DNA of 64,000 nucleotides from Bacteroidia bacterium (GTDB taxonomy: Bacteria; Bacteroidota; Bacteroidia; B-17B0; Aurantibacillaceae), in NCBI GenBank assembly GCA_014378485.1, contig JACMNO010000092.1, forward strand, positions 62,001 through 126,000. Reading direction: 5' to 3'. Shown in pieces: positions 34,690 to 35,190 of this stretch. The position numbers and the translations under genes are program-made. Each line of letters begins with the position of its first letter. Position 1 is the stretch's first letter. The notes below the pieces were generated by a model, which was not told the DNA's origin, did no database searches, and saw nothing but the letters and a program-made list of their open reading frames with translations.

Positions 34690-34746
34690 GGGGGATTAGC
34701 TCATTTGGTCCCGAAAGCGTTCGGGACGCATCGCTGGCAGAGAAGT
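34690..34746 (+). pseudogene. disrupted tRNA-Ala copy with an inserted palindrome
   Basis: The first 18 bases (GGGGGATTAGCTCATTTG) are identical to the intact tRNA-Ala at 34778. The 3' half of the D arm (GCTAGAGC in the intact gene) is replaced by a perfect 20-base palindrome, GTCCCGAA-AGCG-TTCGGGAC, at 34708-34727. Then 12 of 13 bases match again through the anticodon loop (GCATCGCTGGCAG), after which similarity fades and there is no T arm or acceptor 3' strand. It cannot fold as a tRNA. It lies directly behind the tRNA promoter. Confidence 0.75.
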
Positions 34747-34777
34747 TGAAATTATAGAAATATTGTTCTTTAAAATT

Positions 34778-34854
34778 GGGGGATTAGCTCATTTGGCTAG
34801 AGCGCTTCGCTGGCAGTGAAGAGGTGACCGGTTCGAATCCGGTATTCTCCACCA
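34778..34854 (+). tRNA. tRNA-Ala (anticodon GGC)
   Basis: A full 77-base cloverleaf: acceptor GGGGGAT with ATTCTCC (two G-U pairs), D arm GCTC/GAGC, anticodon stem CTTCG/TGAAG with loop CTGGCAG giving anticodon GGC (reads GCC), T arm ACCGG-TTCGAAT-CCGGT, and an encoded CCA end at 34852-34854. A terminator palindrome starts on the next base. Confidence 0.92.
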
Positions 34855-34897
34855 AAATCCCGATCCCGAATACTTTCGGGATCGGGATTTTTTTATT
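34855..34897 (+). terminator. tRNA terminator made of a perfect 36-base palindrome
   Basis: Arms of 16 bases, AAATCCCGATCCCGAA (34855-34870) and TTCGGGATCGGGATTT (34875-34890), loop TACT, followed by TTTTATTT. It shares the CCCGAA-nnnn-TTCGGG core with the palindrome inside the broken tRNA copy, and 17 bases (34871-34887) recur exactly at 35168-35184. Confidence 0.8.
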
Positions 34898-34902
34898 TAG
34901 TT

Positions 34903-35157
34903 ATGTTTTACATTTATATTATTTATTCTAATGCGGTCGATAAATATTATGTCGGTCAAACTGAAAATATAGAAGACAGATTGGTTTCTCATAATTCAGC
35001 AATTTCAACTTACACATCAATTACCAAAGATTGGATTTTGGTTTACACTGAATCGTTTGAAACCAGGAATGAAGCCATTTGTCGGGAAAATGATATTAAA
35101 AGGAAAAAGAGCAGAAGATATATTGAGTGGTTGATATCAAAGGGTGAATTGAATTAG
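34903..35157 (+). CDS. GIY-YIG nuclease-domain protein
   Basis: An 84-residue stand-alone GIY-YIG domain. The two signature tyrosines stand in FYIYII and YYVGQT (variant YIY/YVG), the catalytic-type arginine in EDRLVSHN, and the metal-binding glutamate helix in ETRNEAICREND, with a Lys/Arg-rich C-terminus (KRKKSRRYIEWL). Such domains cleave DNA in homing endonucleases, UvrC and small mobile genes; short versions are abundant in Bacteroidota. The gene is bracketed by palindromes sharing 17 identical bases and lies just behind a duplicated tRNA-Ala. Mobility is inferred from that context. Confidence 0.85.
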   Translation: MFYIYIIYSNAVDKYYVGQTENIEDRLVSHNSAISTYTSITKDWILVYTESFETRNEAICRENDIKRKKSRRYIEWLISKGELN

Positions 35158-35190
35158 CTCTCCCGACTACTTTCGGGATCGGGACTTTTT
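35157..35190 (+). repeat. second copy of the CCCGA palindrome, after the GIY-YIG gene
   Basis: TCCCGAC (35161-35167), then TACTTTCGGGATCGGGA (35168-35184), then CTTTTT. The last 17 bases are identical to 34871-34887; the left arm is shortened by about 6 bases relative to that copy. It can still form a short stem with a T tail and probably ends transcription of the GIY-YIG gene. Confidence 0.75.

Follow-up and report, generated by a model that had tools for sequence, protein, structure and literature searches.

How does a small GIY-YIG nuclease gene come to stand directly behind a tRNA-Ala gene, among palindromes and beside a broken copy of the same tRNA? This question is raised by a locus in a 64,000-nucleotide stretch of DNA from a Bacteroidia bacterium (the whole stretch that was analysed is called the window here). 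An earlier sequence-only reading had proposed that nuclease and palindromes are moved or copied together, that tRNA-Ala or its terminator serves as the target, and that the pair resembles REP/RAYT systems. This interpretation is partly supported, being right in outline and wrong in detail. The observation is larger than the window and is part of a recurrent arrangement of tRNA and nuclease, found at no fewer than 94 loci.

Locus features

On the + strand, the order is infB, broken tRNA-Ala, tRNA-Ala(GGC), terminator, GIY-YIG open reading frame (ORF), palindrome 3 and a DUF6134 gene (Table 1). The three palindromes described in the sequence-only reading are present as placed, and the 17-base direct repeat that it reported on either side of the nuclease gene is exact. 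Palindrome 1 was read as GTCCCGAAAGCGTTCGGGAC starting at 34708 and palindrome 2 as AAAATCCCGATCCCGAATACTTTCGGGATCGGGATTTT starting at 34854; palindrome 3 is TCCCGACTACTTTCGGGA at 35161-35178, followed by TCGGGACTTTTT. The intact and the broken tRNA-Ala were likewise recovered, the former by both ARAGORN and Rfam. All other Rfam matches in the window at a loose threshold were below the gathering scores. A second tRNA-Ala(GGC) match outside the window locus was not found at E <= 0.01 in the same genome, which is 89% complete.

Table 1. Features of the tRNA-Ala/GIY-YIG locus (window positions)
Feature	Position	Strand	Remarks
Broken upstream tRNA-Ala copy	34690..34745	+	nt 1-19 (34690-34708), palindrome, nt 26-44 (34727-34745)
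18-bp palindrome TCCCGAAAGCGTTCGGGA	34709..34726	.	takes the place of D-arm nt 20-25 in the broken tRNA-Ala copy
Intact tRNA-Ala(GGC)	34778..34854	+	sole ARAGORN tRNA of the window; Rfam concurs
Intrinsic terminator of tRNA-Ala (palindrome 2)	34854..34891	+	aligns with the terminator of G007
Stand-alone GIY-YIG nuclease ORF, 84 aa	34903..35157	+	PF01541; family-invariant residues present; predicted fold
TTAGCTC, palindrome TCCCGACTACTTTCGGGA and terminator half TCGGGACTTTTT	35154..35190	+	behind the nuclease gene
17-base direct repeat TACTTTCGGGATCGGGA	34871..34887 and 35168-35184	.	exact identity; common to palindromes 2 and 3

Palindrome 2 is identified as the tRNA-Ala terminator because the relative G007 carries a simpler terminator, TCCCGA-tata-TCGGGA (AAAAGTCCCGATTATATCGGGACTTTTTT), at the equivalent spot. 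Contrary to the earlier suggestion, the palindromes are not one family copied with the gene: palindrome 2 is a terminator, and the diagnostic palindromes are hairpins that replace tRNA arms and differ between loci. As for the proposed target, the tRNA gene itself is the likely one, and the terminator is an ordinary one. At the position equivalent to the upstream broken copy, the relative G012 has a broken tRNA-Ala with another palindrome (TTCCGTAAGCTTACGGAA) and G007 a degenerate counterpart. Where the window has palindrome 3, G012 has a recognisable broken tRNA-Ala with TCCCGAATCCGTTCGGGA. The TTAGCTC ahead of palindrome 3 resembles the tRNA-Ala D-arm, and the last segment of the unit is possibly what is left of a downstream broken tRNA-Ala that became joined to the former terminator, a tRNA origin that rests on these 7 bases.

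The nuclease and other GIY-YIG genes of the genome

The 84-aa ORF matched the PF01541 GIY-YIG profile with E 3.7e-15, which bears out the stand-alone GIY-YIG gene of the earlier description. The profile match, the invariant Y, G, R, H, E and K columns and the fold place the protein in the GIY-YIG superfamily. Y3, Y14, G16, R24, H28 and E60 of the domain are among the residues invariant in 20 tRNA-linked members; Tyr, Arg, His and Glu are presumably the catalytic residues of the GIY-YIG domain. The fold was predicted with a pLDDT of 85. In a Foldseek search of the model, the top PDB match was the UPF0213 protein BH0048 (1zg2; E 2.6e-4, 32% identity), the only one under E 0.001. Most of the next matches were Slx1, with weak E-values (0.007 and above), and I-TevI ranked 14th. 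The protein has no separate DNA-binding part.

The nuclease evolves under purifying selection. In chosen clades, in which many pairs were saturated, dN/dS was 0.06-0.39 in 17 of 18 unsaturated between-locus pairs; the remaining pair, which is near-identical, gave 1.06. The window protein had no match at E 1e-5 in phage (tblastn, 50,697 records) or plasmid collections, and 2 weak relatives from IMG/VR were seen among at least 600 candidate stretches; on these results a phage or plasmid gene was rejected.

Eight GIY-YIG matches were found in the same genome. Besides the window gene and five further short genes, there are two in longer frames, of 618 aa (probably UvrC) and 725 aa. One of the short genes (L004), with an internal stop, lies behind tRNAs and tRNA-Met pieces with the palindrome TCACGCTACAGCGTGA. 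Two GIY-YIG genes were seen in G000 in other settings. The one on contig C54 (L001, ~1330-1800) is small, has no tRNA neighbour and apparently lies between similar direct repeats (TTCTCGATAC...CACTCGAACTGAC). The other (L157, C5:58502-58829), also tRNA-unlinked, lies ~90 bp behind a TCCGCCAGTTGGCGGA that is itself embedded in a CGTCATTGCGA...GAAGCAATCTC repeat.

Comparison within the genus

The locus was compared with its counterparts behind infB in 13 genomes of the genus. The nuclease gene is present in G000 and G012, and G007 has a possible relic, judged by eye. A bare tRNA-Ala stands there in six genomes (G001, G002, G005, G008, G009, G011), tRNA-Ala followed by tRNA-Val in G010, and no tRNA in G003, G004 and G006. 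Presence and absence at one site in close relatives, a mark of homing genes, is thus found at infB/tRNA-Ala. Differences in tRNA-Ala that might protect the carriers of the genus were looked for by eye against the non-carriers, and none were seen.

Three patterns, describing palindrome-broken copies of Met, Ala and Pro tRNAs, were searched in 20 genus genomes including that of the window. They gave 26 matches, of which 22 (13 separate loci) have a GIY-YIG gene in the examined stretch. The other four comprise two at one contig end beside tRNA-Met copies, one tRNA-Met remnant with what seems to be an eroded nuclease end, and one chance match. Three of the 20 genomes (G000, G012, G017) have the Ala D-arm pattern, with a GIY-YIG gene at all 6 sites (3 loci), so that among the 20 the broken Ala form is confined to the three in which an Ala-linked nuclease was found. 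These results sustain the earlier view that nuclease, tRNA and palindromes belong together. The observation goes beyond chance: the 3.53-Mb genome of the window has CCCGAN{4,9}TCGGG at 8 places, 3 of them in the window locus, and the reversed pattern at none. A genome-wide family of ordinary terminators with no link to GIY-YIG genes, which had been named as the case that would speak against the unit, was not seen and is rejected, since the core is at only these 8 places and the pattern matches go with a GIY-YIG gene.

Another palindrome, TCCGCCNNNNGGCGGA, is present in 13 of the 20 genomes with 0-63 copies per genome (63 in G017, 0-15 in the others). At 25 distinct places (27 loci, with G003:C95 and G019:C106 left out as known tRNA-nuclease sites), several copies lie in the loops of terminators or repeats, and a GIY-YIG gene was found only at L157. 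In several cases (among L158, L168, L170, L184 and L185) it lies inside the loop of another hairpin, in terminators or GTCACCCTG-type repeats. From such arrangements it looks as if short hairpins invade hairpin loops in this genus.

Recurrence beside tRNA genes

A PF01541 profile search covered the genome of the window and 59 relatives, and the matches listed favour high scores. Frames over 250 aa were dropped, and split or tandem stretches were counted apart; for listed short-frame matches without a locus, 80 regions were taken and 11 left out. Among the matches listed, 122 short-frame GIY-YIG domain stretches were obtained in 117 loci, 38 of them within 500 bp of a tRNA and 84 not. Around these stretches, again among the matches listed, tRNA density was 1258 per Mb within 100 bp vs 22 per Mb at 1-2 kb, and all 30 tRNAs within 100 bp were on the same strand as the gene (27 upstream, 3 downstream).

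A second set was obtained by scanning genome_contigs with five tRNA-Ala-type members, the best 80 of 109 relatives being kept. Among these best 80, a tRNA lay within 500 bp in 66, the nearest was at 659 bp in one, and none was found in 13. Of the closest 22 of the best 80 (L187-L208), 16 adjoin tRNA-Ala(GGC), lying behind it or next to it; 2 follow other tRNAs, and 4 have no ARAGORN tRNA. Two or more nuclease domains in tandem were present in 17 of the best 80.

Both sets combined gave at least 94 non-redundant loci (that is, not identical; near-identical loci remain) with a same-strand tRNA; the gene follows the tRNA in 86 of them and precedes it in 8. The small GIY-YIG gene thus adjoins a tRNA and is nearly always directly behind it. 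For the counts of tree, junctions, inserts and partial copies, identical sequences and loci with the tRNA >320 bp upstream or >140 bp downstream were dropped.

The relatives belong mainly to Bacteroidota, and also to Ignavibacteria, Cloacimonadota and CPR MAGs. Record titles of the tRNA-linked loci include Flavobacteriales, Chitinophagaceae, Cytophagales kin, Ignavibacteria, Cloacimonadota, Neomarinimicrobiota and Patescibacteria-type MAGs; many of the named hosts are MAGs, in which binning may be wrong. If it is correct here, the CPR-labelled carriers suggest transfer over very large distances. Cultured, harmless carriers include Mucilaginibacter straminoryzae and Cyclobacterium xiamenense.

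Individual loci vary in layout. In Cyclobacterium xiamenense (L246:1990-3750), four head-to-tail units of nuclease gene and broken tRNA-Pro (~364 bp each) follow one intact tRNA-Pro, upstream of which are two 5' broken tRNA-Pro copies. In three Patescibacteria-type MAGs (L260, L264, L248), the arrangement is seen at tRNA-Lys, -Val and -Met, with palindrome-broken copies.

Broken tRNA copies and their hairpins

With ARAGORN tRNAs masked, a partial copy of the locus's own tRNA was found in 85 of 94 loci; another isoacceptor gave 14 of 94, and shuffled sequence 1 of 94. In an uncontrolled count over 109 entries, 102 had a partial copy and 82 a palindrome, tandem copies being counted apart and neighbouring whole tRNAs and terminator palindromes included. 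Of the 325 palindromes in the 94 loci, 128 (in 76 loci) are flanked on both sides by the own tRNA in order. The controls gave 0, 0 and 0 with shuffled, 0 with reversed and 4 with other-isoacceptor sequence. In the 128 cases the palindrome replaces the anticodon arm (81), the T-arm (30) or the D-arm (17). The commonest junction, nt 27-palindrome-nt 45, accounts for 26 of 128, and 50 of 128 palindromes start with TCCCGA, a common form being TCCCGA...TCGGGA. Hairpins in the T-arm often interrupt GTTC/GAATC. The median hairpin is 18 nt long and often stands in place of the 17-nt stretch 28-44.

Of 90 inserts between tRNA pieces, taken without regard to palindromes, 80 had perfect arms of 6 bp or more (shuffled, ~1%), and several of the remaining 10 are imperfect palindromes. 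Palindrome density in non-coding DNA was 3.09 per kb near the unit vs 0.25 per kb at >=800 bp away. This 12-fold excess was obtained with frames >=100 aa masked; the 37-fold excess without masking compares mainly non-coding with mainly coding DNA.

Among 57 upstream copies, 42 begin at nt 1-3 and 9 extend to nt 75; among 71 downstream ones, 47 extend to nt 75 or further and 4 begin at nt 1-3. Mismatch to the intact tRNA was 3.0% (upstream) and 1.8% (downstream) in the outer pieces, and 4.9% in the inner ones. Since the outer pieces are closer to the resident tRNA than the inner ones, the idea that a foreign tRNA was transferred whole along with the cassette fits poorly and is disfavoured.

Stems and loops also differ within loci. 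Among the copies in L232, stems stay perfect and loops vary. In L041, L043, L113 and L119, the terminators behind the tRNA and behind the broken copy have common flanks and a different hairpin, as in an exchange of hairpins; the downstream terminator of L041 has TCCCGATAGCAATCGGGA in its loop.

Taken over the loci, the unit consists of the nuclease gene with arm-swapped partial tRNA copies around it, is found at a syntenic tRNA in some members of the genus and missing in others, and is often in tandem.

Isoacceptor specificity

A tree was built from 92 tRNA-linked nuclease domains over 76 columns, domains under 60 aa or with stops being dropped; many forks are open. The isoacceptor of the adjoining tRNA changes 34 times on this tree, vs 61.2 on average and never fewer than 53 in 1000 shuffles. 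For 32 rows with an NCBI family name, there were 9 isoacceptor changes (shuffled mean 18.1) and 18 changes of host family (shuffled mean 22.0, lowest 19). For 55 rows labelled by phylum, host changes numbered 10 (shuffled mean 11.8, lowest 9) and isoacceptor changes 20 (shuffled mean 33.3). On these 76 columns with many open forks, tRNA isoacceptor groups the nucleases more sharply than host taxonomy does. None of the six commonest isoacceptors forms a single clade, the changes numbering 9 for Ala, 6 each for Met and Asp, 4 each for Val and Asn, and 3 for Pro. Spread that follows the target and not the host phylogeny, a second mark of homing genes, is found on the 76-column tree to this extent, with forks partly open and isoacceptors not single clades. 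The tRNA-linked and unlinked GIY-YIG genes are clustered as well (35 changes, shuffled mean 65.6), yet do not form two clean clades.

Interpretation

The reading preferred here, which we consider moderately probable, is that of a selfish gene, similar to a homing endonuclease gene, that lives on tRNA genes. The nuclease would recognise its cognate tRNA gene and cut it. Recombination at the cut would copy the nuclease together with pieces of the tRNA, leading to insertion and to amplification of the segment. One intact tRNA copy would be retained because, we propose, the cell needs it. Surplus tRNA copies would persist only where the recognised arm is destroyed, as the hairpin does. The hairpin copies may then act as uncuttable homology arms, the left one formed by the 5' half of the tRNA and the right one by its 3' half and the terminator.

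Several points stand against this reading. The intact tRNA of the carriers ought to remain a target, and the surplus copies are the ones disrupted by hairpins. The isoacceptors are clustered without each being one clade. A separate DNA-binding part is lacking in the protein, whose nearest folds are those of UPF0213 and Slx1, I-TevI ranking 14th. The outer tRNA pieces match the resident tRNA better than the inner ones. The palindromic, often TCCCGA-type insert is not accounted for, and similar palindromes occur elsewhere in hairpin loops. The growth of the arrays could be due to unequal recombination alone, and many small GIY-YIG genes have no tRNA neighbour (the 84 of 122 stretches among the matches listed).

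Since similar palindromes also lie in hairpin loops elsewhere, the hairpins could derive from a palindrome that invades loops in general. Independent mini-palindromes would invade loops anywhere, the broken tRNA copies would collect them only because they are hairpin-rich and free of selection, and the nuclease would be an unrelated tenant of tRNA 3' ends. The spread of TCCGCCNNNNGGCGGA over 13 of 20 genomes, with several copies in terminator or repeat loops and a GIY-YIG gene at just one of 25 places (L157), agrees with this account, which is nevertheless doubtful: palindromes in non-coding DNA are ~12 times denser near the loci, the palindrome-broken tRNA copies of the genus occur almost only with the nuclease gene, and the replaced stretch recurs. 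The local excess and the tie to the nuclease speak for a special status of the tRNA-nuclease locus. If the enzyme were instead a structure-selective nuclease like Slx1, acting on cruciform or hairpin DNA of tRNA genes and palindromes, the latter would be substrates or products and not a protection. Hairpin arms are indeed replaced by hairpins, stems are perfect and loops variable in L232, and Slx1 follows UPF0213 among the structural matches of the model. However, those matches are weak, and pure structure selectivity leaves the isoacceptor clustering unaccounted for; we regard this account as unlikely.

It is very improbable that the broken copies yield a functional tRNA-like RNA (a decoy, guide or antidote) working with the nuclease. 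An 18-nt hairpin in place of 17 nt, upstream copies that mostly start at nt 1-3 and mostly perfectly paired arms would suit such an RNA, but an acceptor stem cannot form, since most upstream copies have no 3' end and most downstream ones no 5' end, and the inner pieces are more decayed than the outer. That a stray GIY-YIG gene merely happens to lie beside a tRNA pseudogene and terminators can hardly be entertained: palindrome 2 is truly a terminator and these genomes have many small GIY-YIG genes, but recurrence at the 94 or more non-redundant loci, together with the isoacceptor clustering, refutes coincidence.

The homing-like reading may be extended, tentatively and with more chance of being wrong than right, to a system widespread among bacteria in which an isoacceptor-specific mini-nuclease at tRNA genes drives the replacement of arms by ready-made hairpins and thereby immunises the surplus copies. 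We know of no homing element with such hairpin-for-hairpin exchange. It is this part that may be new in principle, free-standing homing endonucleases being already known. A search of open-access titles and abstract openings, with subscription papers and preprints outside its scope, found no description of the bacterial arrangement. If the reading is true, a large and so far unnamed class of chromosomal selfish elements lives on tRNA genes in several phyla, and the palindrome-bearing broken tRNAs of Bacteroidota genomes would be explained. Nucleases from frames of only ~80-165 aa seem to distinguish isoacceptor genes and would offer very small candidate sequence-specific nucleases. The persistence, in its carrier, of a nuclease aimed at an indispensable gene becomes testable.

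Comparison with known systems

The window protein is similar to UPF0213 (BH0048, 1zg2) in size and predicted fold. To our knowledge, UPF0213 proteins have no tie to tRNA genes; a difference also lies in the many small GIY-YIG genes without a tRNA neighbour in the same genomes. With integrative elements at tRNA attB sites, the unit shares the position at the tRNA 3' end and the partial duplication of the tRNA, but here both 5' and 3' tRNA pieces are duplicated and arms are exchanged for hairpins. No integrase-sized ORF lies between the tRNA copies of the window locus, and the duplicated tRNA pieces are broken by hairpins, so an integrase island was rejected there. With REP/RAYT pairs, the unit has in common a nuclease-type gene near short palindromes. 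The analogy drawn in the sequence-only reading is unsupported because the palindrome core is at only 8 genome places and the steady partner of the gene is the tRNA. The window gene encodes a GIY-YIG protein and not a tyrosine transposase, genome-wide REP palindromes are not what was found; those seen here take the place of tRNA arms and differ from locus to locus.

SegB of T-even phages is a free-standing GIY-YIG homing endonuclease encoded within a tRNA cluster; according to the accessible text of the source, it cuts inside tRNA genes and is required for tandem amplification of the tRNAs and its own gene (PMC13096335). In the same text, 23 of the 83 cut sites that were mapped carry the motif RAWTSGAAC (PMC13096335); we read this motif as that of the T-loop on the other strand. 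The segB gene is described as inserted between two tRNA genes (PMC2988022, accessible text). SegB is phage-borne and the bacterial system chromosomal, and the window protein had no tblastn match at E 1e-5 in the phage collection that would link it to the SegB subfamily. The accessible text reports no isotype preference for SegB (PMC13096335), vs the isoacceptor clustering seen here, and makes no mention of hairpin-broken tRNA copies. In both systems a free-standing GIY-YIG gene adjoins tRNA genes, and SegB is the closest experimental precedent and a better model than REP/RAYT.
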